In this document: positions 1,987-19,455 of the stretch, one piece after another
Layout: every line of letters begins with the position of its first letter
Position numbering within the stretch: position 1 is the stretch's first letter
IMG/VR virus record: IMGVR_UViG_3300025120_000751
Coordinates: 1 to 20,148 of that record
Length of the DNA: 20,148 nucleotides
From: a virus
Direction: 5' to 3' (one strand)
The notes under the pieces: model-generated
What the model saw: the letters and a program-made list of their open reading frames with translations, nothing else
Told to the model about the DNA's origin: nothing
The model's database searches: none
Program-made: the position numbers and the translations under genes

Positions 1987-2654
1987 TGACTGATAATTTA
2001 AGCAAGGAACTAACTAAGGCATTAAGCATAGAAGATAACATAGAACTTATTGAAGAGATAAAAGAGATGTTACATAAAAACTCTGTTCTTAAAACTCAGC
2101 CAATAAACAGAATTAAATGGGCTAAGATCGAGGAGGTAACGCCAAACGATTACAACCCTAATTCAGTAGCTAAAAAAGAAATGGGGCTATTATATACGTC
2201 TATAAAGCAAGACGGATACACTCAGCCAATAGTTACTATTTACGATCCTAAAGAGAAAATGTATGTTATAGTTGACGGATTCCATAGGTACTATACTGCA
2301 AAGACTAATGAAGATATACTAGAAAGAAACAAGGGACGTATTCCGATCGTAGTAATTGACAAAGATATTAACGACAGAATGGCAAGTACAGTTAGACACA
2401 ATAGAGCAAGAGGTATGCATAGCGTTACTGGTATGTCAAATATGGTTTTCCAGATGCTAGAAAATGGTTGGAGCGATGAGGATATATGCAACGAGGTAGG
2501 ATTAGGCATAGAGGAGCTTGTCAAATTAAAGCATATAACTGGTTTTTCTAAGCTATTTGAGGACGCAGAATATAATAAGGCTTGGGAGACTAAAAATCAA
2601 ATCAAGTTAAAGATAAACTATAAGAAAGGGCAAGAGGGCAATGGACAAAAATAG
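1986..2654 (+). CDS. IbrB-like ParB/Srx-fold protein
   Basis: A 222-residue protein with a ParB N-terminal domain at about residues 43-145. It begins with a WAKIEEVTPNDYNPN strand and includes IKQDGYTQPIV and the GxHR-type nucleotide-binding signature VDGFHR (96-101), then RHNRARG (137-143). A predicted helix-turn-helix-like segment follows (about 162-182). It lacks the length and central domain order of a chromosomal ParB, and no ParA is next to it, so plasmid-style partitioning is unlikely. Its ATG overlaps the stop of the IbrA-like gene in a TAATG arrangement, so the two are almost certainly made together, as with ibrA/ibrB of E. coli. ParB-fold proteins bind CTP or act as nucleases in other systems; the activity here is not known. 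The gene overlaps the terminase small subunit by 14 bases. Confidence 0.82.
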   Translation: MTDNLSKELTKALSIEDNIELIEEIKEMLHKNSVLKTQPINRIKWAKIEEVTPNDYNPNSVAKKEMGLLYTSIKQDGYTQPIVTIYDPKEKMYVIVDGFHRYYTAKTNEDILERNKGRIPIVVIDKDINDRMASTVRHNRARGMHSVTGMSNMVFQMLENGWSDEDICNEVGLGIEELVKLKHITGFSKLFEDAEYNKAWETKNQIKLKINYKKGQEGNGQK

Positions 2655-3021
2655 ACACATAAAAAAAGAGTCTCTGCTGAAATCCTTAGAACAAAGCCTT
2701 GGGGTAGTAACCGTGGCTTGTAGTCAAGCAGATATTCCGAGAAGCACTTACTATAAATGGCTAAATGAAGATGATGAATTTGCTAAACAAGTTAAGGAGA
2801 TAGAGAATGTTGCACTAGACTTTGCAGAGAGTAAGCTACACGCTCAGATAGAAAGTAACAATACCTCTGCCACTATATTCTTTTTGAAAACAAAAGGGAA
2901 GAACAGAGGATATGTAGAGCGTACAGAGGTACAACAAGAAACAACCTACAAGAGCCTAGACATAAATATAATAGATACTGGCGTACCATTAGCGTCTAAT
3001 GAGAAAGATATAGTTGATTAA
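2641..3021 (+). CDS. terS: Terminase small subunit (helix-turn-helix)
   Basis: A 126-residue protein whose N-terminal half has a helix-turn-helix of the form GVVTVACSQADIPRSTYYKWL (split around residues 21-41), followed by the acidic helix NEDDEFAKQVKEIE, typical of small terminase subunits that recognise the packaging start on phage DNA. A middle helical stretch (AESKLHAQIESNNTSATIFFLK, split here only for description) suits oligomerisation. It lies between the ParB-like gene, which it overlaps by 14 bases, and the large terminase, which it overlaps by 8 bases. The position directly before the large subunit supports the call more than the sequence alone does. Confidence 0.82.
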   Translation: MDKNRHIKKESLLKSLEQSLGVVTVACSQADIPRSTYYKWLNEDDEFAKQVKEIENVALDFAESKLHAQIESNNTSATIFFLKTKGKNRGYVERTEVQQETTYKSLDINIIDTGVPLASNEKDIVD

Positions 3022-4171
3022 GACCAGTCCACTATATCACAAGAACTATAAGTCTACTGCCGACGTAGTAGTGAATCAAGGAGGTACGTCCTCTGGTAAG
3101 ACCTATGCTATTTTACAAGTATTATTTAGTAAGGCTATAAATGAGGTATGTACAATTACAATAGTAGGGCAAGATATACCTAATCTTAAGGTAGGTGCTG
3201 GAAGAGATGCAGAGGATATTGTAGTTGCTTCACCAGCAATAAAACAACAGATCGTATCCTTTCATATGTCAGATAGAGTCTTTACATTTAGGAATGGGTC
3301 TATAATCGAATTCAATAGCTATGACAACGAGCAAGATGCAAAGTCTGGTAAAAGAGATTATTTATTTGTTAACGAGGCTAATGGTATACCCTACAACGTA
3401 TATGAGCAACTATATTTAAGGACAAGAAAACAGACTTTTATTGATTACAATCCAGATGCTAGTTTCTGGGTGCACGATAAGGTTATTCCTCTGTCAACTA
3501 CTGAGCTAATAATATCTGATCATAGGCATAACCCTTTTCTCAGTAATAAGGTAAGGGAGAAAATAGAGGCTCTAAAGGACAAAGATATGGATCTATGGAA
3601 AGTATATGCTAGGGGCATTACTGGCAGAATAGAGGGTCTAGTATTAAGGAACTGGTACATAACTAAGGACGACTTTAGTGATAAAAAGCTTGTAGGATAC
3701 GGAATGGATTTTGGTTTTGCTAATGATCCGTCAACGCTTATAGAGGTGCGTATGGAGGATGGAGAGCTATATGTCAAGGAATTATTGTATGAAACTGGAT
3801 TAACTAATCAAGACATAAATAATAGAATGAGTATATTGGGGATAAGTAGAGGAACGTTAATTGTAGCTGATTCTGCCGAGCCTAAAAGTATTGAAGAGCT
3901 TAGAAGATTAGGTTGGACAATAGATGGCGTTAAAAAGGGCTCTGATAGCCTTATGTTTGGTTTAAATCTACTTAAAGGGTACAAGATAAATGTAGACGCA
4001 AATAGCTCTAATTTAATTAAGGAGCTTGAACAATATAAATGGAGAGTTAAAAAAACTGGGGAAACAATAAATACTCCAGTAGATAAATATAATCACGCAA
4101 TAGATGCCTTAAGGTATTTAGTTATGCACAAATTTAGTAAAAAAGGATATGGACAATACGCAGTCATTTAA
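3014..4171 (+). CDS. terL: Terminase large subunit (packaging ATPase and nuclease)
   Basis: A 385-residue DNA packaging motor. The N-terminal ATPase has Walker A GGTSSGKT at residues 23-30 and Walker B YLFVNEA at about 116-122. The C-terminal RNase H-like nuclease shows acidic residues in GMDFGFANDPS (Asp232), VADSAEP (Asp286) and HAIDALRY (Asp364). The architecture is that of the Terminase_3 (PBSX/SPP1-like) group. The start must be a TTG at 3014: an in-frame TAG sits just before it, and no in-frame ATG occurs before Walker A. The start overlaps the small subunit gene by 8 bases, so it is probably translationally coupled. It would act at the portal, which here lies more than 11 kb downstream. 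Confidence 0.95.
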   Translation: MIKTSPLYHKNYKSTADVVVNQGGTSSGKTYAILQVLFSKAINEVCTITIVGQDIPNLKVGAGRDAEDIVVASPAIKQQIVSFHMSDRVFTFRNGSIIEFNSYDNEQDAKSGKRDYLFVNEANGIPYNVYEQLYLRTRKQTFIDYNPDASFWVHDKVIPLSTTELIISDHRHNPFLSNKVREKIEALKDKDMDLWKVYARGITGRIEGLVLRNWYITKDDFSDKKLVGYGMDFGFANDPSTLIEVRMEDGELYVKELLYETGLTNQDINNRMSILGISRGTLIVADSAEPKSIEELRRLGWTIDGVKKGSDSLMFGLNLLKGYKINVDANSSNLIKELEQYKWRVKKTGETINTPVDKYNHAIDALRYLVMHKFSKKGYGQYAVI

Positions 4172-4745
4172 GATCTCGGTTAGGCAATACCAAGAAATCA
4201 ACGGAATAGATGAGAGTTTATCATTAGTTGAGCAGAATATCTACGCAGTAGCAGCGATCAAGGATATCACATACGAGGAGGCATCTAAGATTAAGATGTC
4301 AGAATTCAAGAAAATAGTAGATCAGCTAAACGATTTCAATGTAAGGCTATTAGAGAAGCTAAGAATAAGAAACAAGATCTTTCTTAACGGAACAGAGTAC
4401 CACATTGAGCATAAGCCAGATAAGCTAACTAGTGGACAACTACTAGACGTTATTAATGTAAGGAGTAAGAATCAAGGGGAGGCAGTAAAGGTAATGCACC
4501 TACTCCTAGCTGCTATGTGTAGACCTAGAGGCAAGGAATATGGTGACGACAATATAAACCTAGAGGAGAGGGCAAAGCTAATTCAAGAGGTAGATTTACC
4601 AGATGTATGGAATGTCTTTGTTTTTTTTTGGAATCTTTGGAACGATTACTTGAGCGATTCAGAGGACTCTTTGAGCAAGTGGATGAGGGAGACGTTGGAG
4701 ATGACAAAAGAGATTTTGGACAACGATGGGGACTCTTTAGCGTAA
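4149..4745 (+). CDS. Tail assembly chaperone, short form (gpG-like)
   Basis: The zero-frame product is 198 residues. The N-terminal part (ISVRQYQEI, EQNIYAVAAIKDITYEEASKI, MSEFKKIVDQLNDF) and the central HKPDKLTSGQLLDV region resemble tail assembly chaperones of siphoviruses, which bind the tape measure while the tail tube is built. The last 38 residues, after the slippery site, are acidic and look like a simple tail. The ATG at 4149 lies inside the end of the large terminase gene (23-base overlap). In most siphoviruses this gene directly precedes the tape measure; here the tape measure is about 6 kb downstream. A longer frameshifted form is described separately. The family call rests on sequence pattern and the frameshift; a search would be needed to confirm it. 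Confidence 0.7.
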   Translation: MDNTQSFKISVRQYQEINGIDESLSLVEQNIYAVAAIKDITYEEASKIKMSEFKKIVDQLNDFNVRLLEKLRIRNKIFLNGTEYHIEHKPDKLTSGQLLDVINVRSKNQGEAVKVMHLLLAAMCRPRGKEYGDDNINLEERAKLIQEVDLPDVWNVFVFFWNLWNDYLSDSEDSLSKWMRETLEMTKEILDNDGDSLA

Positions 4746-4870
4746 TAAAGGCTATGGCAGATTTACACAATATTAGTATTAACGAGTCTACTAAATTAGG
4801 TGCAATAGAATTCCTAAACTGGTGGGCATATATGGTAGAAAAAGAAGATTATGACAGATCAACAAAATAA
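4149..4870 (+). CDS. Tail assembly chaperone, long form by -1 frameshift (gpGT-like)
   Basis: A -1 shift at the T-run (4622-4628) would join residues 1-160 of the zero frame to 80 residues of the -1 frame, giving a 240-residue protein that ends at the TAA at 4868-4870. The -1 frame is open from before the T-run and has a protein-like end: GLFSVIKAMADLHNISI and AIEFLNWWAYMVEKEDY. Without a shift, the 106 bases between 4745 and the next ATG at 4851 would have no clear coding role, and this segment would lack a start other than the ATG at 4607. The arrangement matches the lambda G/GT pair in function and direction of shift. An independent start at 4607 is the main alternative. Confidence 0.75.
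4622..4630 (+). promoter_or_regulatory. Slippery site for -1 programmed ribosomal frameshifting
   Basis: A run of nine T residues (4621-4629) follows a G. In the zero frame the codons are GTT TTT TTT TGG. The heptamer T TTT TTT followed by G fits the X XXY YYZ rule, so both P- and A-site tRNAs can re-pair after slipping back by one base. A weak hairpin (TCAGAG 4659-4664 with CTTTGA 4669-4674) lies about 30 bases downstream, further than usual for a stimulator. No strong Shine-Dalgarno-like stimulator is seen just upstream. Confidence 0.72.
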
Positions 4871-5420
4871 ATTATACGATAGTTTAACGGACTATTGGCA
4901 AAAGATAGTAGATGACCTAGTAAAATCGTTGTATGATGTAGGTAGGGTCGCTAGTGGAGCTACTGCTCAGAGTATAGGTGCTTTAAACCCTATGCCAATA
5001 ACTTTTACCTCGACTGGATTTAAGGTGCAAATTAATATGCCTAAGTATTATCAGTTTATTGATGAGGGTGTAAGTGGAACAAAGAGGAATACTGGCATAA
5101 GTAGGTTTAAGTATAAAACTAAGCTGCCCAATATATCTGCTATTAGAAAGTTTATGGTCAATAGGGGTATAAACGATTTCTCTGACATTAAGTCAAAGAG
5201 AGGATATGCTCGAAAGAACACAACCTCTGGTAAGCGTAGGGATGCTGAGGAGATCAGAAAGTCTATTGCATTCGTAATAGCAAGGAGTATATTTGAAAAT
5301 GGTGTAGAGCCTACAAATTTTTACTCTAATGTCATTAATGATCAAGAGTTAATAGACTTTGAGCGTCAATTATTCGTTGAATATCGCAAGTATATTGTAG
5401 GATTAATAAAAATAAATTAA
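4851..5420 (+). CDS. HK97 gp10-like tail completion / head-tail joining protein
   Basis: A 189-residue protein. The pattern KYYQFIDEGVSGTKRNTG (residues about 64-81) followed by FKYKTKLPNISAIRKFM and a C-terminal IAFVIARSIFENGVEPTNFYS resembles the HK97 gp10 family of Bacteroidota phages, in which a 'Y-fxdxGv-G' loop precedes basic, flexible sequence. Such proteins act at the head-tail joint or tail terminus. The start ATG overlaps the end of the frameshifted chaperone by 20 bases, which supports translation through that region. It is the last gene before a short non-coding stretch containing a promoter. It might alternatively be a minor head protein; the structural class is surer than the exact role. 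Confidence 0.68.
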   Translation: MTDQQNKLYDSLTDYWQKIVDDLVKSLYDVGRVASGATAQSIGALNPMPITFTSTGFKVQINMPKYYQFIDEGVSGTKRNTGISRFKYKTKLPNISAIRKFMVNRGINDFSDIKSKRGYARKNTTSGKRRDAEEIRKSIAFVIARSIFENGVEPTNFYSNVINDQELIDFERQLFVEYRKYIVGLIKIN

Positions 5421-5425
5421 AAAAA

Positions 5426-5457
5426 GTGTAGGATATTAAAATTATTGTATATATTTG
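5426..5457 (+). promoter_or_regulatory. Bacteroidota-type promoter
   Basis: TATATTTG at 5450-5457 is an exact match to the Bacteroidota -7 consensus TAnnTTTG. A GTG at 5426-5428, 21 bases upstream, is an imperfect -33 TTG element. The predicted transcription start, near 5464, leaves a short A-rich leader before the ATG at 5481. It lies in the first sizeable non-coding gap of the window, directly after the gp10-like gene. Confidence 0.6.
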
Positions 5458-5480
5458 TAATACAATTAACAACAATAAAG

Positions 5481-5714
5481 ATGACAAGACAACAATTTTA
5501 CGCAAAACACAGAGAAAGAACAGAGAATTTTGACACAGATAGCATTTTAATGCGAATAGTATCAACTCTATCAGATCTTCAGCACGTCAATAACTTTAGA
5601 GGTAACAATAAAAAGCAAGATATTAACGATATCTGTAATGCTCTAAAGGATTACATATTCGATTACAAAGACCTTATAACACTAGAGGAAGATATCAAAG
5701 AATTTATAAAATAA
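5481..5714 (+). CDS. Small helical protein of unknown function
   Basis: A 77-residue, charged protein with several predicted helices (SILMRIVSTLSDLQHV, DINDICNALKDYIFDY, TLEEDIKEFI). I chose the ATG at 5481 because it follows an A-rich leader (AACAACAATAAAG). A longer frame from a TTG at 5445 would start inside the promoter and upstream of the predicted transcript start. No membrane segment, Cys cluster or recognisable catalytic motif is visible. It is the first of two genes in a unit bounded by its own promoter and a terminator, so it may be expressed apart from the structural genes, as a phage moron would be. Confidence 0.7.
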   Translation: MTRQQFYAKHRERTENFDTDSILMRIVSTLSDLQHVNNFRGNNKKQDINDICNALKDYIFDYKDLITLEEDIKEFIK

Positions 5715-5722
5715 ACAAAACA

Positions 5723-6280
5723 ATGAACACACAAACAAAACAACAAACAAGAAAAGTAGGAGTTGCTGGAGGATTTATCAATCAGATGATGGGTAATAAT
5801 AGATCAGAGCCAGTAGTTGGCAAGGGAGCTACAATACTACACTACTCAGATAGAGCAGCGTACGAAGTAATCGAAGTATCAAAAGACAAAATGAGCTGCA
5901 TAATTAGAGCAATGGATTGCAAGAATGTAGGTAGGTGCTACGGAGATGAGCAATACGAATACAAGAGCGATCCAAATGGAGTAGAATTGCACTTAGAATG
6001 GAATACTAAAAAAGGATGCTGGGGTAAAATATGGTACACAATCGAAATAATCAAAGCCCTAATAAAAAAGTATGAGAAAGAACACGGATATGATTCTATG
6101 AGCATCCTACTTAAAGATCACGGACTTAATAATTATGATGAATTATATGAAGATCCAGAAGCAGATAATTTTCAACACCCAAAAAAGTTAATAAAAGGCT
6201 TAACAAAAGAATACAAGAATTTTAGCAAAGTATCAATCATATTTGGTATAATGGAAGAATATAGAGATCCGCACTTTTAA
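5723..6280 (+). CDS. Conserved-looking phage protein of unknown function
   Basis: A 185-residue protein. After a Gln/Lys-rich start (residues 1-12), it has GVAGGFINQMMGNN, then a probable beta domain containing VGKGATILHYSDRAAYEVIEV, four Cys residues in the first half (about 57-70 and near 98), and GDEQYEYK. The C-terminal half is helical and charged. The pattern is familiar from Bacteroidota phage and prophage proteins, but I know no function. It has no signal peptide or membrane segment. The ATG at 5723 follows an A-rich leader 8 bases after the previous gene, and an intrinsic terminator lies 20 bases after the stop. Its lysine- and glutamate-rich content differs from the surrounding structural genes. 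Confidence 0.75.
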   Translation: MNTQTKQQTRKVGVAGGFINQMMGNNRSEPVVGKGATILHYSDRAAYEVIEVSKDKMSCIIRAMDCKNVGRCYGDEQYEYKSDPNGVELHLEWNTKKGCWGKIWYTIEIIKALIKKYEKEHGYDSMSILLKDHGLNNYDELYEDPEADNFQHPKKLIKGLTKEYKNFSKVSIIFGIMEEYRDPHF

Positions 6281-6299
6281 ACCAAAACCTAAAACAATT

Positions 6300-6325
6300 A
6301 AACCTCCAGAGATGGGGGTTTTTTT
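6300..6325 (+). terminator. Intrinsic terminator
   Basis: AAACCTCC (6300-6307) pairs with GGGGGTTT (6314-6321), an 8-bp stem with one T-G wobble and a 6-base loop, running into a T tract (6319-6325). It ends the two-gene unit that begins at the promoter near 5450. Confidence 0.85.
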
Positions 6326-6345
6326 ATGACGTTAAATTTATATGT

Positions 6346-6353
6346 CAAATTTG
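6346..6353 (+). promoter_or_regulatory. Possible -7 promoter element for the tail genes
   Basis: CAAATTTG at 6346-6353 differs by one base from TAnnTTTG and sits 15 bases before the ATG at 6368, just after a terminator. No clear -33 TTG is seen at the right distance. The position is sensible but the match is weak. Confidence 0.25.
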
Positions 6354-6367
6354 GTATATATTAGTGT

Positions 6368-7627
6368 ATGGCACTTACAATTCAAGATCAACCTATAACT
6401 AATATTCCAGAGCCAAGCTTTGCTCCAATAGAATACTTAGTCAGTAGCACAAGTACTGCTCAAAGTGGATTTAAAGTTATAGCGAGTTTGTTTACAGATC
6501 CTACTGGGACAAATACAAATATTGCTACTTTGCAACTTAATACTATTCCGTCAGCTACGCAAGTGGTTACTGACATCCAGAACATCATACAATCTTTCGT
6601 TACTAGCGAATATTCTGTTTTAGCTGGTGACACTACGGATATATCACAAAGTGCCTTAAAAGCGTTTAAAATAGCTTTTCAAGAATATTACTCTGGAGCT
6701 TTACAAGGTAGTGCAGTAAGTGGCAATACGTTTACTAGCTGGAACTCGTCACCTAAGTATATTGAATGGGCAGACTTATCTGGAGGATCTAAGGACTATT
6801 ATAACTGGAGTATAGAGGATGCTAGTGCTGAAACAAATAAAGAGTTTCTAAACGGCTTTGAACAACAAGCCGAGTGGTTTAACTTGAGCAAAGCAAATAA
6901 CTTCTTAAAGGTAAGATCAACACAGAAGTATCAATCCTCTTGGATTATGAGAGGAGGTCTTACTGACACATATAAAATATACCTACAAACGCTAGATAGT
7001 ACATTCACAACTATTTTGTCAACCACAATGACTGCATCAAATACTGCTGGATTATATACACTTGATGTAGGTGCTTCAGAGGTAGCTTCTCATAGCTGGG
7101 GTACTACTCCAGTAATGACTAATGTAAAATATTATGCTCTTAGGATCTTAAACTTTACAGAGGACGTATGGGCTACAAAAACAATAATGTTTGAAATAGA
7201 CGATTGTGAAAACACCTATACAGATTACGAGCTACATTGGTTAAACAGAAAAGGTGGATATGATAGCTTTATGTTTAGTGGCAAGTCTAATCAGACTACA
7301 AGCATAAATAAGAACTTTGCAAAGTACAATACTCGTACAATAGGAGCAAGTAGCATCACACATAATACCTATTCGCAACGCAAGAGGGCATTTAAAACGT
7401 CTCTAAGCGATTCTTACACATTAAACAGTAGATTATTAAAGGACTTTGAGGTTGAGGGCTTAGAGGATCTATTCTCATCACCAGAAGTTTACTGGAAAAA
7501 CGATGCAAATTTCGTATCTGTGAATGTAACTAGCAATATATTTGAACACGCTAAAAGCGAAAATGGTCAAGTTTACTCTATGCAAGTTACAATGGAAGTA
7601 GATAATAGCGATACTAGGCAATGGTAA
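6368..7627 (+). CDS. Tail structural protein, possible distal-tail (Dit-like) component
   Basis: A 419-residue, Ser/Thr/Asn-rich, beta-type protein with no membrane segment. The C-terminal third shows the pattern YTDYELHWLNRKGGYDSFMF, then a YSQRKRAFKTS segment and VEGLEDLFSSPEVYW, ending with a beta strand pair. This pattern is common in Bacteroidota phage tail proteins, where the protein pairs with a large tail-tip protein, as it does here. The N-terminal region looks like repeated beta sandwiches. It overlaps the 1005-residue tail gene by 7 bases. Position next to that gene and the tape measure points to a baseplate or distal-tail role, but no residue proves it. It could be a different minor structural protein. 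Confidence 0.7.
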   Translation: MALTIQDQPITNIPEPSFAPIEYLVSSTSTAQSGFKVIASLFTDPTGTNTNIATLQLNTIPSATQVVTDIQNIIQSFVTSEYSVLAGDTTDISQSALKAFKIAFQEYYSGALQGSAVSGNTFTSWNSSPKYIEWADLSGGSKDYYNWSIEDASAETNKEFLNGFEQQAEWFNLSKANNFLKVRSTQKYQSSWIMRGGLTDTYKIYLQTLDSTFTTILSTTMTASNTAGLYTLDVGASEVASHSWGTTPVMTNVKYYALRILNFTEDVWATKTIMFEIDDCENTYTDYELHWLNRKGGYDSFMFSGKSNQTTSINKNFAKYNTRTIGASSITHNTYSQRKRAFKTSLSDSYTLNSRLLKDFEVEGLEDLFSSPEVYWKNDANFVSVNVTSNIFEHAKSENGQVYSMQVTMEVDNSDTRQW

Positions 7628-10600
7628 TAGAGCATATAATAGCTGGGTACACGATACCACATAACGAGGGAGCGATCCCTTTGACAAAAGAAGCGTATGA
7701 CGTAAATAACCCACAGAAACGTTTGACGGACTTTAGTAAGACGATCACAATACCAGAGAATAAAGTAGTTAATCAGATATTTGAACACGCCTTTGACGTT
7801 AATATTGATCTTCAGACGTTTAACCCTAATCTAAAAACTAGCTATCAGATAATCCAAGACGGAATAACTGCCATAGACGGCTATTGTCAGCTAAAAGCTA
7901 TCTCTAATGTAGATGGATTAATCAATTACGAGATACAAGCTACTGGTAAAATAGGAGATTTGTTTGAAAAGATACGAGGCAAATATTTAACTGATCTAGA
8001 TCTTAGCAGTTTAAATCATACTTGGAATAGAACTAATATACAAAATAGTTGGACTGCCACAATAGGACAAGGCTATGTATATCCTATGATTGATTTAGGA
8101 GGCAGAACAAGTTATGGTAACTGGGCATTAGAAGATTTTAAACCAGCAATATATGTTAAGCAATATATTGATACTATATTAACAGAGGCTGGATTTACTT
8201 ATGATAGTACATTCTTTAATAGTGATTTATTTAAGCGTCTTATTGTGCCTTATGGTAGTGGTCAAATACTATTAGATAATGCAGATATATTGTGTAAAGA
8301 ATTCAATGTACAAAGAACGAGCCTACAAACTATTGAGTGTCAAAATATTAATACACTATCAAATTTAGAAAATAGTATCGCTATATTTAATGACGATAGT
8401 AGCCTTTCTGCATATGAAAGCCGAGTTATTGCAGATGGTGGAGTTGTAGAGGCTCTAAGTTGTGCAGAGGCTGAGTTTAATTTCTCTGCTGACTATTATA
8501 ATACTTGTACAAACGAGTATAGCTCTACTACTGGCAAGTATACTGCAACAGACCCAAATAGGATGTCTTTTCAAGGGTTATTAAATTTTGATTTATTATA
8601 TACGCAATCAGTTTCTACTATAACAAGCAAACTAAATTACTTTCATCAAGGTACAAAGGTTTTACCATATAGTTTAAATGTTTATTTAGAGGGTTATTTA
8701 GTTGAAAAACTGAGTGGAATATTTACAATCGTAGATACTTTTAAATTTGATGTAACAGAGCCAATAAGAAACAACGCTCTAGGAAGCTCCACAACAATAG
8801 CAGTAGGAGAGCTGCCTTTTCAAACTGGAGAAATAAATGTACAAGCTGGTGCAGAATACTTTATAGCTTTTGGTGGACTATATTACAACGCTGCTGAATT
8901 AGAATTATATGGAACTCCCCCAATAAATAGAAGAGTAGTGCCAATTAGTGCATCAAATAGTGGTGATTTTAAAGTTTTATTACAAGCTAATTCTAATTTT
9001 GGAAGCAATTTATTAGAAACCGAGATTGGAATAGGAGACACTTTACAAACAAAATTTGTAATACCAAAAGAGATTAAACAATCAGATTTTTTTAGCAGTA
9101 TTATTAAGCGTTTTAATTTATATCTTGAGTATGATATAATAGATCCTAACAAATTAATAATTGAAACAAGAGACGGATTCTTGACAGATGAGCGAGTTAA
9201 TTTAGAGCATTTAGTTGATAGATCCAAGGAGTATAAAATAACTCCTTTAGGGGCTTTAAATTCTGGCAGATTTATATATAAAGATCAACTAGATAAGGAT
9301 TATCATAATGACCTATATAACAAGGCTAATAATGAGGTTTATGGAGAAGTAACTATTGACATACAAAATGACTTTATAGATTCTGACAAAAACATTACTA
9401 CAATATTTGCTCCAACTCCATTAAGAAGCATCCCAAATGTAGGTAGGATAATATCTTCAATGGTATTTGTTAATCAACAAAATCAACAAGTAGATGCAAC
9501 TGCTAAAATAAGGTTATTATACTGGGGTGGATTATTAGACCCTAAAGATGCTTGGAGTTTTGCTGGAGCTTTGCATTTAACGTATCCTTATGCTGGACAC
9601 TTAGATAATCCTTTTAACCCTACCTTTGATTTAAACTGGTTTGTGCCTAAACAACTATATTATGATTTCAGTTACGGAAATAAATTTAATCTGTCTTATA
9701 GCAACAATAATTGTTACAATGTATATTGGAAAAAATATATAGAGGAGATTACTGACAAAAATAGCAAGATACTTGAGTGCAATCTAGCCTTAAGACCTTA
9801 CGATTACAATGAACTTGATTTTAGAAAAAATTACTATATAGATGGATCTTATTGGAGGTTGCTAAAAGTAACCGATTTTGATGCATTATCTGGACAAACT
9901 ACAAAATGCACATTCTTAAAAGTAGAGCCAAAGAATGTATTTAGCCCAGAAGTTAAGCCAGTAAGAGGAGGACAAGACGATTTTGCAGATGATACGCCAA
10001 TACCAACTGGAGATATGCTGAGAAGTCCTAATAATAATAGTGGTACTGGTCAAGATAGCTTACAATTTGGCGATAGCGTAAAAGGTGGGACAAGATCAAT
10101 TATAGCATCTGAAAATATTAATCAAGGTTTAAGCTCTAAAAATGCTTTGATAGTAGGCAGCGATTATAGCGAGGCTATGGCTGATAATGTTATGATTGTA
10201 AATAGTCCTTTTATTAATGTAGCAAGACCTAATGAGGCTTATATTAATGGCTTATTTGTAGAGAAACTCACAAGTATAGTACTGGATTACGATATACTAA
10301 CTAATCTTGAATTAGAAATGCCAGTATTGCCTCCTTTGCCAGATGATGAATTTTACGAAGTGACAAGAGGTTATGTTAGGTTAGACGGAAACGCTGCAAC
10401 TGGCGGAAGTCATCAAGTAGATATAGTTACAGACGATGCTTCAGAGCATTTATTAGCTAAGATTGCAAGTGCATTTTTTAATACGGATAACAATACAGAC
10501 CTTATTGAAGTAATTGCACATAATACAACCCCTATTCACTTTGGTAGTGGGCTTAAAATAACGACTAATTCAGCAATGACTTTTGATGCTGGAACTCAAT

Positions 10601-10638
10601 TAATAATAAACTTAGTGTACCGAATAATTAAATTATAA
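7621..10638 (+). CDS. Large tail-tip/baseplate structural protein
   Basis: A 1005-residue protein, the largest in the window. The N-terminal 220 residues show a pattern known from Bacteroidota phages: RLTDFSKTITIPENKVVNQIF, FNPNLKTSYQIIQDG, GYVYPMIDLGG and PAIYVKQYIDTILTEAGF. In position and size it would suit the tail-associated protein at the tail tip, with receptor contact or cell-wall passage as the role; no peptidase motif is visible. An embedded segment at residues 264-281 (AYESRVIADGGVVEALSC) reappears in the small ORF at 19455. The C-terminal quarter has a Gly/Asp/Pro-rich linker (RGGQDDFADDTPIPTG) followed by a beta-rich end. The stop overlaps the tape measure start in TAATG. Confidence 0.75.
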   Translation: MVIEHIIAGYTIPHNEGAIPLTKEAYDVNNPQKRLTDFSKTITIPENKVVNQIFEHAFDVNIDLQTFNPNLKTSYQIIQDGITAIDGYCQLKAISNVDGLINYEIQATGKIGDLFEKIRGKYLTDLDLSSLNHTWNRTNIQNSWTATIGQGYVYPMIDLGGRTSYGNWALEDFKPAIYVKQYIDTILTEAGFTYDSTFFNSDLFKRLIVPYGSGQILLDNADILCKEFNVQRTSLQTIECQNINTLSNLENSIAIFNDDSSLSAYESRVIADGGVVEALSCAEAEFNFSADYYNTCTNEYSSTTGKYTATDPNRMSFQGLLNFDLLYTQSVSTITSKLNYFHQGTKVLPYSLNVYLEGYLVEKLSGIFTIVDTFKFDVTEPIRNNALGSSTTIAVGELPFQTGEINVQAGAEYFIAFGGLYYNAAELELYGTPPINRRVVPISASNSGDFKVLLQANSNFGSNLLETEIGIGDTLQTKFVIPKEIKQSDFFSSIIKRFNLYLEYDIIDPNKLIIETRDGFLTDERVNLEHLVDRSKEYKITPLGALNSGRFIYKDQLDKDYHNDLYNKANNEVYGEVTIDIQNDFIDSDKNITTIFAPTPLRSIPNVGRIISSMVFVNQQNQQVDATAKIRLLYWGGLLDPKDAWSFAGALHLTYPYAGHLDNPFNPTFDLNWFVPKQLYYDFSYGNKFNLSYSNNNCYNVYWKKYIEEITDKNSKILECNLALRPYDYNELDFRKNYYIDGSYWRLLKVTDFDALSGQTTKCTFLKVEPKNVFSPEVKPVRGGQDDFADDTPIPTGDMLRSPNNNSGTGQDSLQFGDSVKGGTRSIIASENINQGLSSKNALIVGSDYSEAMADNVMIVNSPFINVARPNEAYINGLFVEKLTSIVLDYDILTNLELEMPVLPPLPDDEFYEVTRGYVRLDGNAATGGSHQVDIVTDDASEHLLAKIASAFFNTDNNTDLIEVIAHNTTPIHFGSGLKITTNSAMTFDAGTQLIINLVYRIIKL

Positions 10639-12635
10639 TGGCAGATAAAAAAGTAGCATTTGAAATGGCGATCAATCTCAAGAAAGGAGATATGACGATA
10701 GAGGAACTTAATGCCCAGCTAGAAGAGGCTAAAAAATTACTTGAAGATGTAGAAGATACTGGCAGTGATGAATTTAAAGCATTAAGTCAAGTGGTTACAG
10801 ATACCGAAAAGTCTATTGAGGATATGAATGGCGAGTTAAAAAAGACTAAAAAAGGTTTTGAAGATACTGCCGATGCTCAGAAGGAAGCTGGTAAAATGAG
10901 TAAATTATTCTCTAAAGGATTAAAAGCCGTTGGAGTTGGTCTTAAAGCATTAGGAATAGGAATTGTAGTTGGTGCTATTAAGTTATTTTATGACGCTATT
11001 TCTAAGAATCAGCGAATAATGGATGCACTTAGTACGGCTTTAGGTACTATTGGCGTATTGTTTGAGAAACTCTTTGGGGTCGTATTCGATACTTTCGATG
11101 CAGTATCTAAAGCAACTAAAGGCTTTAGTGGATTAACTGCCGTTATGAAAGGGTTAATTACAATAGGATTGACACCTATAAAACTACTATTTAGTAGCAT
11201 AGTATTAACAATAAAAAAAGCTCAACTAGCTTGGGAGCAGTCTTTTTTTGGTGGGAAAGATCCAGAAACAATTAAAAAATTAACAAAAGACGTAGCAGAT
11301 ACACAAAAAGAAATAAAAGAAACTGGTGAGGAAGCAGTCAAAGCTGGTAAAAGTGTAGTCGATAATATGGGCAAAGCAGTTACTGAAGTAGGTAGCGTTG
11401 TCGGAGGAGTTGTCGAGGGCGTTCAAGAGATTACAGTTAAAGGTGCTTTTGAGATAGCCAAAGCAAATACAGAACTTAAAAACTCAGCAGCGATTGCAGA
11501 AGCTCAACAAACATTATTAGTCGAGAAATACGACAGACAAGCAGAGAAGTTAAGACAGACTAGAGACGAAGAGCGTAATAGTATTGCAGAACGTAAGAAA
11601 GCAAATGATGAGTTGCTTAATGTTTTAGATGAGCAAGAAAAGGCTATGATTTCTCAAGCTAATTTACAAGTAGCAGCTGCTCAAGCTGCCGTAAACGAGA
11701 ACGATAATACAGAAAATCAAATAGCATTAATTCAAGCTCTCGCAAATAAGCAAGGAGTTTTAGCACAAGTTGAGGGTATTAGGTCTGAACAAAAAGCACA
11801 AGACCTGGCTTTGGACAGAGAGCAAATGGAACTAACAAAATCTATTTCTGATTCTGAAGCAGAATTATCATATCAAAGGGAATTATTTAATGCACAACAA
11901 ATAAAAGATAAACTAGAACAAGCTGAAAAAATAGTAGAGATTGAGGAGAAACGTCAACAAGATGAAATGCTTAGGCTAGAAACTATTGTTGAACAAGCTA
12001 AACAAGGTACTCAAGCTGAAGTAGACGCACTTAATGCATTAGACGCTTTTAGAGAGGAAAGCAGACAAAAGAATATAGAAGCAAATAACGCAGTATTAGA
12101 GGCTACAATAGCAGCGAATGTAGAAGCAGATAAAAAGATAGAGGATAATAAAAAGAAATCAGAAGAAAAGAAAAAAGAACTTGCTCAAGCTGCATTAGGT
12201 GCAGTAGTTAATATAGCAAATGCATTAGCTGCTGGAAACGAAAAGGATCAGAAAAAAGCGTTCCTAATTAATAAGGCAGTCAGTTTAGGACAAGCTATTC
12301 AGAATACTGCAACTGGTGTTACTAAGGCTTTTGGTCAAGGTGGTGTTGCTGGTTTTGTTACTGGTGGATTAGTAGCAGCTGCTGGTGCAGCTCAGATCGC
12401 TACTATTGCAAAGACTAAATTTCAAGGAGGGGGGCAAGGAGTTGAAGAGCCTAGCACTTCACAAGTTAGCCAAGCTCTTGGTGGTGGATTAGCTGGATTA
12501 CAACCTAGAGGATTTACAAGCCCAATAATAGATACAGACGTACAGACTACAAAAGTAATTGTAACAGAAACGGATATTAGAAGCGTATCTCGTAATGTGG
12601 ATGGCGTTTATAGTAGAGCCACCGTAGTGCAATAG
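10638..12635 (+). CDS. Tape measure protein
   Basis: A 665-residue tape measure protein that sets tail length and probably passes into the host with the DNA. The first 90 residues are a charged helical region. Hydrophobic Gly-rich helices occur at about 94-122, 130-155 and 163-192. A long coiled-coil, rich in Gln/Glu/Lys/Ala, spans about 275-515. A second hydrophobic Gly/Ala segment lies at 566-592 (GQGGVAGFVTGGLVAAAGAA). This hydrophobic/coiled-coil alternation is typical of the family, as is the phrase KKAFLINKAVSLGQAIQNT before the last segment. At roughly 0.15 nm per residue, the tail would be about 100 nm, which is an inference. It follows the tail-tip genes, whereas most siphoviruses place it before them. 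Confidence 0.93.
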   Translation: MADKKVAFEMAINLKKGDMTIEELNAQLEEAKKLLEDVEDTGSDEFKALSQVVTDTEKSIEDMNGELKKTKKGFEDTADAQKEAGKMSKLFSKGLKAVGVGLKALGIGIVVGAIKLFYDAISKNQRIMDALSTALGTIGVLFEKLFGVVFDTFDAVSKATKGFSGLTAVMKGLITIGLTPIKLLFSSIVLTIKKAQLAWEQSFFGGKDPETIKKLTKDVADTQKEIKETGEEAVKAGKSVVDNMGKAVTEVGSVVGGVVEGVQEITVKGAFEIAKANTELKNSAAIAEAQQTLLVEKYDRQAEKLRQTRDEERNSIAERKKANDELLNVLDEQEKAMISQANLQVAAAQAAVNENDNTENQIALIQALANKQGVLAQVEGIRSEQKAQDLALDREQMELTKSISDSEAELSYQRELFNAQQIKDKLEQAEKIVEIEEKRQQDEMLRLETIVEQAKQGTQAEVDALNALDAFREESRQKNIEANNAVLEATIAANVEADKKIEDNKKKSEEKKKELAQAALGAVVNIANALAAGNEKDQKKAFLINKAVSLGQAIQNTATGVTKAFGQGGVAGFVTGGLVAAAGAAQIATIAKTKFQGGGQGVEEPSTSQVSQALGGGLAGLQPRGFTSPIIDTDVQTTKVIVTETDIRSVSRNVDGVYSRATVVQ

Positions 12636-12672
12636 ATTTCCTCTTTTTGCCACAATAGGTATATATAAATAG

Positions 12673-13830
12673 ATGGACTTGCCATTTATAGAATTTAAAC
12701 TAACAGAAGAAGTTGAGGGACTGCAAGCGATAGCTCTAGTTGATAGCCCAGCAATAGGCTTAAACTATCAAGCTTTTGCACCTCACAAATTTGAAGTAAT
12801 TAACGAAGAGAAGCGTATTGTAATGGGAGCAGCGATGATCCCAGACCTACCTATATACAGAAGAGATGAAAGGGGAGAGTATTACGCAATCTTTAAAAAA
12901 GAGACGATCAAAGCACTCGTACAAAAGCTATTCAAAGAGAATAAGCATAATGTATTTAACGAGCAACACAACGCATTTAAGATATTAGATGATGTTTATA
13001 TATATCAGAGCTTTATAACTGACGCAGAGCTTGGCATTTCAGCCCCCTCTGGTTTTGAGAATGTAGCTGACGGAACTTGGTTTATCGCAGCTAAAGTAGA
13101 AAATGATGAAGCGTGGGCGAAGGTTAAAAAAGAGGGTATATTGAATGGGTTTAGTGTTGAGGGTGTTTTCGATCTTGAGCCGTATAAATTTAAAAAAATG
13201 AATAAATTAAACTTAGAGAGTGTTATAAGCACTTTAAAATCTGTATTTGCAGACGCTGAAGTAGAGGAAACTACTGAGGATAACTTTGCAGAGTCTACAT
13301 TAGTAGACGGAACAATCGTTAAATGGGAAGGTGAATTAGCTGATGGAACTGCTTTAGTAGTGGTTATGCCAGAGGGCGAAGTTGCTGCACCAGACGGAAT
13401 TCACGAATTAACTGACGGAACTATCGTTGAAACTGCTGGAGGTCTTGTTGTAAATATTGAGGCTGATTCAGATCAAGGAAAGGACAAGAAGAAAAAAAAG
13501 GATGACGAAATGTATGATAATGAGTTTACTTCTGAGGAGTTAAACGCATTAATTGAGAAAGCTATGGCACAATATGCTGAGGCTTTCACTGCATCTCTTG
13601 AACTTATTAAGTCTGAGAACGATACCTTGAAAACAGAATTAGCTGAGATTAAGTCTGCAAAAGAGGAGTTAAAAAATGAGTTTTCTGCTACACTCAACAA
13701 AGTAGGAGAGGAATTAGAAGAGATTGTTAAGGCAGAGCCTTCAACGGCTTCTAAACCACAAGAATTTAAAGCACTAACTAGAGCAGAAAGAGCTGCAAAA
13801 ATGGGTGCAATTATAAGAGCAAATAAATAA
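12673..13830 (+). CDS. XkdF-like prohead protease fused to scaffold-like C-terminus
   Basis: A 385-residue protein. Residues 1-170 resemble the XkdF-type phage serine protease: VMGAAMIPDLPIYRR, FNEQHN (95-100, with a likely catalytic His99), GISAPSGFENVADGTWFIAA, and GFSVEGVF (159-166, with a candidate Ser161). The middle (210-262) has repeated L-x-DGT beta units. A Lys-rich linker (270-277) leads to a coiled coil (about 285-352) and a basic end (ALTRAERAAKMG). Protease plus coiled-coil tail matches the joined protease/scaffold architecture of many tailed phages. The product would shape the prohead and then cut itself and the capsid protein. It lies directly before the major capsid gene, as expected. 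An internal start for the scaffold part is described separately. Confidence 0.87.
   Translation: MDLPFIEFKLTEEVEGLQAIALVDSPAIGLNYQAFAPHKFEVINEEKRIVMGAAMIPDLPIYRRDERGEYYAIFKKETIKALVQKLFKENKHNVFNEQHNAFKILDDVYIYQSFITDAELGISAPSGFENVADGTWFIAAKVENDEAWAKVKKEGILNGFSVEGVFDLEPYKFKKMNKLNLESVISTLKSVFADAEVEETTEDNFAESTLVDGTIVKWEGELADGTALVVVMPEGEVAAPDGIHELTDGTIVETAGGLVVNIEADSDQGKDKKKKKDDEMYDNEFTSEELNALIEKAMAQYAEAFTASLELIKSENDTLKTELAEIKSAKEELKNEFSATLNKVGEELEEIVKAEPSTASKPQEFKALTRAERAAKMGAIIRANK
13198..13830 (+). CDS. Possible scaffold protein from internal start in the protease gene
   Basis: An in-frame ATG at 13198 (codon 176) follows the A-rich stretch TAAATTTAAAAAA, the kind of leader seen before real starts elsewhere in the window. 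Translation there would give a 210-residue protein, starting MNKLNLESVISTLKSVF, that contains the beta repeats, Lys-rich linker and coiled coil but none of the protease. The position, exactly after the protease domain's GFSVEGVF end, is where a separate scaffold gene would begin. This mirrors lambda C/Nu3. It is a hypothesis from sequence context; residual protease-independent function has not been shown. Confidence 0.45.
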   Translation: MNKLNLESVISTLKSVFADAEVEETTEDNFAESTLVDGTIVKWEGELADGTALVVVMPEGEVAAPDGIHELTDGTIVETAGGLVVNIEADSDQGKDKKKKKDDEMYDNEFTSEELNALIEKAMAQYAEAFTASLELIKSENDTLKTELAEIKSAKEELKNEFSATLNKVGEELEEIVKAEPSTASKPQEFKALTRAERAAKMGAIIRANK

Positions 13831-13843
13831 ATAAAATAATAAT

Positions 13844-14779
13844 ATGAGTTTTGATGTATCAACGTTGACTAATTATGTTAACGAACAATCGACAGACCTA
13901 ATCTCAAGACTATACTTTGAGAAGACGTCAAGCGACTACTTCACGCTGCAATCTGGAGTAAAGAAAACTGATGCTTTGCATCTATTAGCAGTTACTGCAT
14001 TCCCACAAGACGGATCTGGATGTTCAGCTACTGCTTCTGGAGATGTAACTTTTACTGACAGAAACTTAACAGTAGGACAAATTACATACTACTCTGGTTT
14101 TTGTATGAAAGACCTTATCCCTAAGTACACTCAAATCTTGCTTAGAGCTGGAAACGGAGAGACTGAAGATATGGCTTTTGAAGCAGAGGTTGCTGAGTCT
14201 GTAATAAAGACTATTATGGAGCATAACGAGGTTGCTGACTGGCAAGGCGATACTACTTCTGCAAATGTTTACCTAAACAAGTACGATGGTCTTAATAAGA
14301 TTATTGACGCTGCTACTGGAGTTGTTGCTGGTAACACTTCTTCTGCTACTGCAATCACTTCTGGTGCTGCTGGTAACGTAGACGGATTAATTACAGATAT
14401 TTGCAATGCTCGTCCAGCTAAAGTAAAAGCAGCTGCTAACCAAGTATTATTTGTAGGTCAAGATACTTTTGACAAATACGTAGATACTTTAAACGCTAAA
14501 AACCTATACAATATTGATGCAACTGATTGGGCTAATTACGAGACTTCAATCGCTGGTAAAAATGTATCTTTAGTAGGTGTTGCTGGATTGGACGGAACAA
14601 ATAGAATGTTCTTAGGTGTTAAAGACAATTTCTTTTTAGGATTTGATCTACAAAACGATGAGGAAGAGTTTGATTTCTGGTATGACAAGAAAGATGACAA
14701 AGTTTATTACAGAGTTAAATTTAAAAGAGGACTACAAGTAGCATACCCAGACGAGATTGTACAATTTACATTAGCATAA
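13844..14779 (+). CDS. Major capsid protein (HK97-fold candidate)
   Basis: A 311-residue protein. The order protease/scaffold, then this gene, then a tail-tube candidate is the best evidence. The sequence has Bacteroidota phage capsid features: VSTLTNYVNEQSTDLISRLY near the start, DVTFTDRNLTVGQITYYSGF, an Ala/Gly/Thr-rich central part, FVGQDTFDKYVDTL, and an end with YYRVKFKRGLQVAYPDEIVQ. The codon use is biased to GCT, ACT, TCT and GGA, as in highly expressed genes, and is more uniform than that of its neighbours. There is a 13-base gap after the protease gene with the leader ATAAAATAATAAT. No decoration domain is evident within it. The HK97 fold is inferred from the family. Confidence 0.92.
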   Translation: MSFDVSTLTNYVNEQSTDLISRLYFEKTSSDYFTLQSGVKKTDALHLLAVTAFPQDGSGCSATASGDVTFTDRNLTVGQITYYSGFCMKDLIPKYTQILLRAGNGETEDMAFEAEVAESVIKTIMEHNEVADWQGDTTSANVYLNKYDGLNKIIDAATGVVAGNTSSATAITSGAAGNVDGLITDICNARPAKVKAAANQVLFVGQDTFDKYVDTLNAKNLYNIDATDWANYETSIAGKNVSLVGVAGLDGTNRMFLGVKDNFFLGFDLQNDEEEFDFWYDKKDDKVYYRVKFKRGLQVAYPDEIVQFTLA

Positions 14780-14802
14780 CCCTTTAAAACAAAAAAAAGA
14801 TT

Positions 14803-15315
14803 ATGGCGTGTAATTTAACAACTGGTTTTTCGGTAGGATGTAATGATTCAATCGGTGGTGTAGCAGAATTCTGGATAGCAAATATGCCAACAGATTTCGC
14901 TGCAAACACTGACGGAAGTGGAGAGGTAACTGGTCTAGCTGGAACTGGACTAGATTATCACAAATTTGAGTGTACTAATGCTCAAGGTGCTTCTTCTGTA
15001 ATGAATGATAATCCTACTGTTAACGATGCTAACGGAACAAGCTTTTTTGATCAGACTGCAACTTACGTTCTCAATAAAATGGAGAAAGCAAAACGCAACG
15101 AGGTTAAAATGATAGCAAGAGCCAAGATGTCAATAATTATCAAGGATAATAACGGAACATACTGGCTAATGGGAGAGACAAATGGAGTACGTTTAGTCTC
15201 TGGCGACAACGGAACTGGTACTGCTCTTGGAGACAGAAATGGTTATAGCCTTTCTTTCCAAGCACAAGAATCAGAGCCTATGCCAATAGTAACTGCTTCT
15301 ATTCCAACTACATAA
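14803..15315 (+). CDS. Probable major tail tube protein
   Basis: A 170-residue protein beginning MACNLTTGFSVGCNDSIGG, a familiar start for a Bacteroidota phage structural family. The core is beta-rich: NGTSFFDQTATYVLNKMEK, SIIIKDNNGTYWLMGETNGV, GTALGDRNGYSLSFQAQE. The length, the Gly/Asn turns and the location straight after the capsid gene fit a tail tube protein that stacks around the tape measure. It follows the capsid gene by 23 bases with an A-rich leader (AAACAAAAAAAAG), and is closed by an intrinsic terminator. Codon use resembles the capsid gene, so high expression is likely, as expected of a tube subunit. A head decoration role is the alternative. Confidence 0.72.
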   Translation: MACNLTTGFSVGCNDSIGGVAEFWIANMPTDFAANTDGSGEVTGLAGTGLDYHKFECTNAQGASSVMNDNPTVNDANGTSFFDQTATYVLNKMEKAKRNEVKMIARAKMSIIIKDNNGTYWLMGETNGVRLVSGDNGTGTALGDRNGYSLSFQAQESEPMPIVTASIPTT

Positions 15316-15339
15316 GAGATCTAACTCTAAATAGAACAC

Positions 15340-15372
15340 AAGCCCACTTCGTAATAGGGGTGGGCTTTTTTT
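15340..15372 (+). terminator. Intrinsic terminator after capsid and tail-tube genes
   Basis: AAGCCCAC (15340-15347) pairs with GTGGGCTT (15360-15367), an 8-bp perfect stem with a 12-base loop, followed by a run of seven T residues (15366-15372). Only 11 bases separate it from the next ATG, so no separate promoter fits in the gap; downstream genes need read-through. Confidence 0.9.
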
Positions 15373-15383
15373 AAAATATTACA

Positions 15384-15746
15384 ATGGACATAATAGAACA
15401 AGACGCTACAAATTACATTTATTGCAATATCTCAAATGAGGTAGTTAATGCTTATTACACTATGTCTATTCAAAGTGCTGAGTACGAAGTAAACGCTACT
15501 CTTGCAGCTCCAGTAGGGGTAAATAATAGGTACGTTAAATTTACGTTAATAGAGGGGACGCAAGACCTTTCTAATGCAACAATAGAGCTACCTAACAAGG
15601 GAGATTATCCTTATAAAATAATAAATGCCACTACATTAGGAGGAACAGAGGGGATAGAAATACACAGAGGTATATTAAGATTGAAACAACCAAAAGAAAT
15701 TGTATATTCGTTTACTGACGAGCAAAATACTTACATATATGAATAA
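15384..15746 (+). CDS. Small beta-rich phage structural protein, unknown role
   Basis: A 120-residue protein without membrane segments. Alternating hydrophobic strands (ATNYIYCNIS, AYYTMSIQSAEYEV, RYVKFTLIEG, GDYPYKIINAT, EGIEIHRGILRL) suggest a small beta sandwich. I do not recognise a named family; proteins of this length and style are common between tail and portal genes in Bacteroidota phages. Its start lies 11 bases after the terminator, and its stop overlaps the portal gene's ATG (15739) by 8 bases, so translation is probably coupled to the portal. A role in the connector or tail is an inference from position. Confidence 0.65.
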   Translation: MDIIEQDATNYIYCNISNEVVNAYYTMSIQSAEYEVNATLAAPVGVNNRYVKFTLIEGTQDLSNATIELPNKGDYPYKIINATTLGGTEGIEIHRGILRLKQPKEIVYSFTDEQNTYIYE

Positions 15747-18183: not shown

Positions 18184-18683
18184 TATTAATAGTCAGCCCA
18201 GCTTTTGTTAAAGAAAATAGTGTACTGCATTATAATGTAGATGACGGATATCTTAAGCCGTTAATTGATAGCATTCAAAATACGTTTATAAGACCTATAT
18301 TGGGTAGCTCATTATTTGACGAGATCTTAACACAAATAAAAAACAACAATGTTTCAACGCTAAACGAGACTCTAATAAAAGAGTATATGCGAGATGCATT
18401 AAAATGGGAGGTATGCCACAAATACACTCGTATTGGTACATATAAATTAAGGAACAAAGGTGCTGGAACTAAGACTGGGGACAATTTTAGCCCACTAAGC
18501 GAGGGAGAGTTAGTCGTTGCAAAAAGCATATATAAAGATAATGCAGATTTTTATAGACGAAAATTACAATTATATTTGAAAGAGAATGAAAACAGTTATC
18601 CTTTGTTTAAAACTCCACCAGACGGCTTAGATATAGTCCACCCAGAACACGATACTAAATGGAGAAGCCAATTTATACTATAA
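18180..18683 (+). CDS. Head-tail connector/adaptor protein
   Basis: A 167-residue, mostly helical protein. The N-terminal half (YLKPLIDSIQNTFIRPILGSS, LFDEILTQI, LIKEYMRDALKWEVCHKY) is like head-tail connector proteins that extend the portal ring, where a first helix with 'I-x-P-x-L-G' precedes the helical bundle. The C-terminal half is charged and holds KSIYKDNADFYRRKLQLYL. Its ATG overlaps the portal stop (ATGA), so the two are probably made in step. The position directly after the portal supports the call. I cannot name a specific family with certainty, though DUF6712-like Bacteroidota proteins have this form. Confidence 0.7.
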   Translation: MILIVSPAFVKENSVLHYNVDDGYLKPLIDSIQNTFIRPILGSSLFDEILTQIKNNNVSTLNETLIKEYMRDALKWEVCHKYTRIGTYKLRNKGAGTKTGDNFSPLSEGELVVAKSIYKDNADFYRRKLQLYLKENENSYPLFKTPPDGLDIVHPEHDTKWRSQFIL

Positions 18684-18707
18684 ACAAGGAAAAGAAGTTA
18701 GAGAAAT

Positions 18708-19178
18708 ATGTCGAAAAGTTTAACCATAAAAAACATAAGGACGATAATGGAGGGCATCAAGTCAGAACATCCACAAATCAACACAATATTAAAAGGTAAT
18801 ATTTGGGATGTTGATCTAACAAAGGATGTTACTGGTAGCTATCTTATTTATGATGTTTCAAACATTTCTCCTAATGGTTTTAATGGAATAGATTATTCCC
18901 TGGATCTCTTTTTATGCGATAATGTTACAGAGATAAACACAGAATCTAACGAGGTAAGTGTGCAAAACGAATGTTGCTTAATCGCTTTGGATATTATGAG
19001 CATATTTGAGAACTATAAAAAGGCAAGTTATGCTGACAAAGATTTAGCTTTAGTTTTAAATAAGAGCTGGAGCATACAACCATTCACCGAAAGATTTGAT
19101 AGCCTATATAGTGGAGCAGCGATTACTATGTCGTTAAGCTCGGCTTATGGCTACGCACGATGTAAAATACCAACATAA
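18708..19178 (+). CDS. Tail completion/terminator-like protein
   Basis: A 156-residue protein. Strands and helices alternate, with SYLIYDVSNI, YSLDLFLCDNV, VQNECCLIALDIMSIF, and then SWSIQPFTERFDSLYSG followed by hydrophobic AAITMSLSSAYGYARCKIP. This closing pattern (a 'Pf-erf--aG' turn, strands and 'C-iP') is typical of tail completion proteins of Bacteroidota phages, which close the tail tube at the head end. It lies after the connector with a 24-base gap containing GGAAAAGAAG and is followed closely by two small genes. The role rests on position and pattern, not on an experimentally anchored motif. Confidence 0.66.
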   Translation: MSKSLTIKNIRTIMEGIKSEHPQINTILKGNIWDVDLTKDVTGSYLIYDVSNISPNGFNGIDYSLDLFLCDNVTEINTESNEVSVQNECCLIALDIMSIFENYKKASYADKDLALVLNKSWSIQPFTERFDSLYSGAAITMSLSSAYGYARCKIPT

Positions 19179-19182
19179 AAAA

Positions 19183-19455
19183 ATGACAACAACTGAATTA
19201 CAATTATCAAGAAACGGACAGAAATGCGTAACTGGAGATGTTACCTTTACTGCTTCAGACAAAGTAGCTTATCTCGTAGTAAACGCAGATGCTATATTCG
19301 CAAACCTTACAGATCAATCCGACAACAATATATTAACTGAAAGTGCATTAACTGGTGTAACGCTTTCTACTGGTATGATTGTTTCTGCTAAAAATAGTGG
19401 AACGATTAAAAGAGTTAATGTATCGTCTGGGTCTGTTTTAGCTATATTCGGATAG
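19183..19455 (+). CDS. Small beta-rich phage protein, unknown
   Basis: A 90-residue protein from the ATG at 19183, after the A-rich leader AACATAAAAAA. An earlier ATG at 19147 lies inside the previous gene and is less likely. The sequence is short hydrophobic strands with Ser/Thr/Asn turns: VAYLVVNADAIFANLTD, LTGVTLSTGMIVSAKNSG, VNVSSGSVLAIFG. It looks like a small beta-barrel or trimeric decoration-type protein and has no membrane segment or catalytic motif. Similar small proteins occur near tail or fibre genes in Bacteroidota phages. Decoration, fibre attachment or connector roles are all possible. Its stop overlaps the next GTG by one base. Confidence 0.65.
   Translation: MTTTELQLSRNGQKCVTGDVTFTASDKVAYLVVNADAIFANLTDQSDNNILTESALTGVTLSTGMIVSAKNSGTIKRVNVSSGSVLAIFG

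Follow-up and report, generated by a model that had tools for sequence, protein, structure and literature searches.

The slip site of the lambda G/GT system is a G/A-type heptamer. At that locus, which lies in the phage structural block, a -1 shift near the end of the gene yields a short protein and a C-terminally extended form with a shared N-terminal part (PMC5009743). The gene described here, in a 20,148-base IMG/VR record of an uncultured virus analysed over its whole length ('the window'), has the same layout. By contrast with lambda G/GT, its site is a pure run of nine or ten T residues (T9 or T10), its short product has a 38-aa tail of its own that overlaps the -1 domain, and it is located after the terminase gene rather than before the tape-measure gene; moreover, no similarity to tail assembly chaperone (TAC) profiles was found.

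A/T runs of about nine residues, here a conserved one, are also known from Shigella mxiE and Thermus dnaX; in mxiE, the run bridges overlapping frames, and slippage yields a longer protein (PMC1088944). These genes are unrelated to the present one, which differs further in belonging to phages and in having a long overlap whose two frames are both under selection. The gp55 family of Bacteroides phage BS-TP3 (phrog_28240) is of similar size and also lies directly after the terminase gene, but its members are single-frame, and the relation falls short of significance (its highest value, prob. 79%, is with the N-terminal part of the second family described below, and there is no match with the window's own family). 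Finally, genes 38 and 39 of the Nonlabens phages P12024S and P12024L share the place after the terminase gene, the T9 run and a homologous -1 extension, whereas their zero-frame tail is shorter (27 codons), identity over the aligned fusion profile is ~17%, and they are annotated as two genes with the frameshift unmentioned. No paper on this T-run site in Bacteroidota phages was found in the open-access literature, subscription papers not being covered.

Overlapping frames and the T run

The zero-frame gene (4149–4745; this and all other features are on the plus strand) encodes a G-like short product of 198 aa, of which residues 1–160 are common to the predicted long product and the last 38 form its own C-terminal tail. 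The T9 run (4621–4629) is read in the zero frame as GTT TTT TTT TGG and contains the slippery heptamer T TTT TTT (X XXY YYZ; 4622–4628) in phase with that frame, T GG coming next. The -1 frame is already open upstream of the run, within an ORF at 4607–4870; on translation, a -1 slip at T9 joins residues 1–160 to 80 further residues (LESL...STK, encoded by the extension at 4628–4870 with its stop at 4868–4870), which would form the C-terminal domain of a 240-aa product. The zero-frame tail and the -1 domain are thus encoded together at 4631–4745, where substitutions silent in both frames are enriched 4.3-fold. The original prediction, made from the sequence alone, had described the same two ORFs overlapping at a nine-T run, and its coordinates and lengths match; the join of 160 and 80 residues into 240 was reproduced by translation, and the ORF coordinates bear out its placing of the next gene's ATG (4851) within the -1 extension. 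The heptamer was said there to obey the slippery rule, but its spelling, T TTT TTT G, was one T short. An AlphaFold model of the short product, built with 22 relatives, is mostly helical and confident (pLDDT 83). The -1 domain modelled alone gave a low-confidence fold (pLDDT 65), and a Foldseek search with that model returned nothing informative.

Parsimony substitutions on a tree of 51 distinct sequences were sorted by their effect in each frame. Upstream of the run, silent zero-frame changes were over-represented (2.14), and changes altering the zero frame only were rare (0.41). After the zero-frame stop the pattern was reversed, with changes that are silent in the -1 frame and alter the zero frame at 3.03, and the converse class at 0.40. 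Within the overlap (111 nt tested), changes silent in both frames reached 4.27 times expectation and those altering both 0.75; among changes affecting one frame, those altering the zero frame stood at 1.34 times expectation and those altering the -1 frame at 0.96. These classes, taken by region, indicate that both frames are constrained in the overlap and locate the switch at the run. The zero frame is under purifying selection before the run and within the overlap; the -1 frame is unconstrained before the run, under purifying selection from the run onward and the sole constrained frame after 4745. The -1 domain is also more conserved than the zero-frame tail. Judged from these substitution patterns, both the 198-aa and the 240-aa products are maintained by selection, and it is very likely that both are real.

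The nine T sites themselves showed no parsimony substitutions in the 51 distinct relatives, compared with averages of 8.2 at 13 two-fold T/C third positions and of 10.2 over the full set of 154 third positions that precede the site, a single one of which was also at zero. A simple Poisson estimate for the three zero third positions within the run is ~2e-11, if these evolve like the 13 comparable ones. Position 4628 is the one base that coding fixes in neither frame, T to C exchanging synonymous codons in each (TTT/TTC and TTG/CTG), and yet it is invariant. By these counts, conservation of the run is far beyond chance.

The same picture is obtained from wider sampling. A protein scan of IMG/VR gave 47 loci, and every one that covers the site has retained T9 and the two frames. 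At protein identities as low as 55%, nearly all relatives have a zero-frame product of 198 aa and a -1 frame of 82 codons measured from the run. Some seed peptides of this first scan overlap the slip site, although as degenerate codons; a scan seeded on the -1 domain only returned the same result together with variants (V to I; W to Y or F) in which the T run is unchanged. A later domain-seeded scan, built solely from sequence beyond the slip site and hence free of bias towards it, found T9 (65) or T10 (13) in 78 of 80 loci. The two exceptions are L366, in which the site is lost through an apparent in-frame deletion of ~50 codons, with the N-terminal part and the -1 domain remaining (a misassembly is possible), and L302, from a Chlorobium MAG, which has neither T9 nor T10 and is a doubtful relative. 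Two domain-seeded scans confirmed at least 577 and at least 581 related loci, and in the pooled, thinned set every one of the 160 distinct genes with a site carries T9 (135) or T10 (25), none of them a shorter run. Across these 160 genes the run begins in a GTT, CTT, ATT or TTT codon and ends in TAT, TAC, TGG, TTG or TTC, so that the in-phase T TTT TTT is retained while the flanking residues vary (V/I/L/F and Y/W/F/L). The T10 register preserves the zero frame, and the T10 of one group lies one codon upstream in the protein alignment. Thus the alignment of homologues proposed with the original prediction finds the run and the -1 frame both kept (51 relatives; 160 genes), and the contrary outcomes it had named are absent: the -1 part is never a gene with a conserved start of its own, and a shorter run is seen in none of the intact relatives.

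Named phages gave no tblastn match to either frame of the window gene. A Foldseek comparison of the short-product model with viral models, however, returned 31 proteins at E <0.001, none functionally named, including I6R9M9 of Nonlabens phage P12024S. In this phage, P12024S_38 (175 aa) lies directly after the terminase gene and carries T9 at 23578, where the -1 frame enters the separately annotated P12024S_39; genes 38 and 39 (L143:23136–23830) carry annotations as two hypothetical proteins but very probably form a single frameshift gene. Of the sequences with a checkable run in this second family (63, comprising IMG/VR relatives down to 25% identity and P12024S; one seed peptide, FFYHLGND, spans the site as protein sequence), T9 is present in 62 and T10 in one, and the zero-frame tail is ~18–86 codons long, against 38 aa in the window gene. 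Profile comparison between the two families matched their N-terminal parts (prob. 97, E 1e-10), their -1 extensions (prob. 98, E 1.7e-13) and the joined fusions (prob. 99.4, E 4e-21), with the alignment of the last running straight across the junction; the zero-frame tails gave no match. On these profiles, the fusion is homologous end to end between two distant families, and a programmed -1 switch of frame at the T run almost certainly produces it.

Ribosome or RNA polymerase

Decoding would, in what is presumably the majority of cases, remain in the zero frame and terminate at 4745 to give the 198-aa protein, and in a minority change to the -1 frame at T9 (4621–4629) to give residues 1–160 followed by the conserved 80-residue domain. 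We lean modestly towards a switch at the ribosome, where two tRNA-Phe would slip by -1 on T TTT TTT. The in-phase heptamer is always present in the site-bearing genes, and the direction fits a ribosomal -1 shift; the phage tail-chaperone shifts studied so far are also ribosomal (PMC5009743), and 6–7% frameshifting has been measured for two HK97-like genes (PMC3711429).

A serious competitor, to which we give a smaller but substantial chance, is that RNA polymerase slips on T9, so that mRNAs with one extra U bring the -1 frame into phase and ribosomes read them normally, for which mxiE provides a precedent of transcriptional slippage (PMC1088944). The run is T9 or T10 in all 160 site-bearing genes and never 7 or 8. 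In bacteria, runs usually become prone to slippage at nine residues, and it is at this length that many species show selection against slipping by RNA polymerase (PMC1088944). However, the first T, as the middle base of a hydrophobic NTT codon, is forced by coding, as is the ninth by a Leu codon of the -1 frame, and these two coding-fixed residues, added to a seven-T heptamer, lead one to expect a minimum of nine under ribosomal slippage too. Similarly, polymerase slippage would account for the invariance of 4628, the last base of the second TTT, which is free to change silently, but a C within the heptamer would weaken ribosomal slippage as well, and both mechanisms predict that this base stays fixed.

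Other observations speak for the polymerase. In E. coli, ribosomal slippage at U_UUU_UUU is weak relative to that at A_AAA_AAG (PMC5009743). A ribosomal stimulator, which commonly but not always accompanies programmed -1 frameshifts, was not found downstream: 70-nt windows starting 0–120 nt past the run had mean z values of ~-0.2 to 0.8 (pseudoknots were not specifically covered), RNAalifold over 271 columns gave -2.5 kcal/mol and no conserved structure, and neither an Rfam family nor a tRNA was found within the 20,148-nt window. In the other genes of these phages, avoidance of T heptamers is independent of codon phase, in-phase heptamers (0.60) being no more avoided than out-of-phase ones (0.44 and 0.25), and T8 runs occur at 0.41 of expectation (4 versus 9.9, which are small counts). 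Against this stands the ribosomal nature of the tail-chaperone frameshifts studied to date. The junction peptide (V-F-F-L-E-S...) is identical under both mechanisms; mass spectrometry therefore cannot tell them apart, whereas RNA reads can.

The locus had originally been described as a -1 programmed ribosomal frameshift. The -1 fusion at the T run is upheld by frame selection, profiles and run conservation, but the ribosomal level is only modestly favoured, as polymerase slippage would give the same peptide. The wider proposition that a widespread group of flavobacterial and related environmental phages use polymerase slippage at an invariant T9/T10 to balance two tail-assembly (or head-tail) proteins in a given ratio, and not by ribosomal frameshifting, with the long dual-coding overlap giving the short product its own conserved tail, can be put forward only tentatively.

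Genome context and function

Immediately upstream, with a short overlap, lies the gene for the terminase large subunit (3014–4171; phrog_6672, E 1.5e-35; Pfam Terminase_3C, E 3.4e-18), and the next gene downstream, which starts inside the -1 extension, belongs to the PHROG 29822 family (4851–5420; phrog_29822, E 1.3e-6). The order terminase small subunit, terminase large subunit, frameshift gene and phrog_29822-type gene is common to both families. In the second family, one more gene stands between the frameshift gene and the phrog_29822-type gene, and the start of the gene that follows the frameshift gene lies at the -1 stop or slightly ahead of it, comparable to the start at 4851 in the window. 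Just before that start, in the region coding in the -1 frame only, 70-nt windows from ~140 nt past the run (4770–4839) are more stable than shuffled sequence (mean z -1.6; z < -1 for 81% of the 26 relatives folded). In two contigs, the gene downstream of the frameshift gene (L168:4658–5596 and L167:4658–5629) encodes a long proline-threonine repeat (PTPTPT...).

The gene order of the window at 2641–19455 is unusual in that the terminase, frameshift, tail and tape-measure genes precede those for a protease, a probable major capsid protein and the portal. The portal protein (15700–18183; phrog_33693) has a long C-terminal extension matching other phage families of unknown function and has the look of a fusion.

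The window virus probably infects marine flavobacteria, as far as relatedness of its genes can indicate. Among named phages, its terminase is nearest to those of Flavobacterium phages (38%), and the frameshift family includes Persicivirga/Nonlabens phages and a contig from a Winogradskyella MAG. By this indirect route, the earlier assignment to a Bacteroidota phage is supported.

The two proteins probably act like lambda G and GT, as tail assembly chaperones that are required in a fixed proportion. Comparative evidence supports a short and a -1-extended product from one start, phage tail genes lie downstream, and the Foldseek search described above (BFVD) also gave a weaker, suggestive match to a named tail assembly chaperone, A0A8S5V8Z8 (prob. 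0.97, TM ~0.41), and another to a named TAC at prob. 0.30, although the best matches are unnamed phage proteins. The layout and the named Foldseek match make the 'tail chaperone' of the original prediction plausible, and its analogy to lambda G/GT holds for the layout of short and -1-extended products; it does not extend to gene position, and no profile family identifies the gene. The frameshift could instead be real and its products not be tail chaperones but, for example, head-tail or packaging factors, which is compatible with either level of shift and which we consider rather unlikely given the G/GT-like layout, the named Foldseek match and the tail genes. In favour of such a role, the gene adjoins that for the terminase large subunit, and the probable tape-measure gene (10638–12635; phrog_9483, E 1.6e-6, and three other tape-measure families) is not adjacent but ~6 kb downstream, whereas G/GT genes usually lie directly upstream of the tape measure. 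Searches of PHROGs and Pfam gave no significant TAC match for the frameshift gene, TAC families being very divergent; a PDB sequence search gave no function, and a PDB structure comparison nothing above Z 3.3. In Flavobacterium phage 6H, a weak fold match, the one 191-aa CDS checked (10352–10927) lacks any run of seven or more T residues.

After the terminase gene, phages of the Bacteroides type carry a single-frame gene of ~180 aa (phrog_28240; L138:3915–4463, L140:15007–15543 and L141:2286–2855), which is possibly an unshifted counterpart of the frameshift gene. These genes had been considered as unshifted fused homologues after inspection by eye, but profile comparison with the window's family was unsupportive. 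The annotation of BS-TP3 gp55 as a 'TrkA-N domain protein' looks unfounded.

The -1 part as annotated and as conserved

The annotation of P12024S_39 implies that the -1 part is a separate gene starting inside the zero-frame gene. An ATG is indeed available in the -1 frame at 4607, and P12024S_39 is annotated from a -1-frame ATG. However, the ATG at 4607 is present in only 7 of 33 relatives, which argues against an independent start; conservation of the -1 domain begins at the run and takes in residues that precede the P12024S_39 ATG, and the -1 frame is unconstrained before the run. A separate gene is hence very improbable. A sequencing or assembly error, to which homopolymers are prone, or a recent frameshift mutation creating a pseudogene has a negligible chance, since T9 recurs in cultured phages and in tens of contigs that were assembled independently, and both frames are under purifying selection.

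The host group is generally held not to depend on Shine-Dalgarno pairing, and a cultured phage-host pair exists in which the choice between ribosome and polymerase could be decided directly. In the one annotated case found (P12024S), the -1 domain was called separately, which means that a conserved protein domain has been hidden from databases. With the site carried by at least 160 distinct phage genes in the sample, these phages offer a very large natural comparative set for a pure T run as a programmed frame switch.
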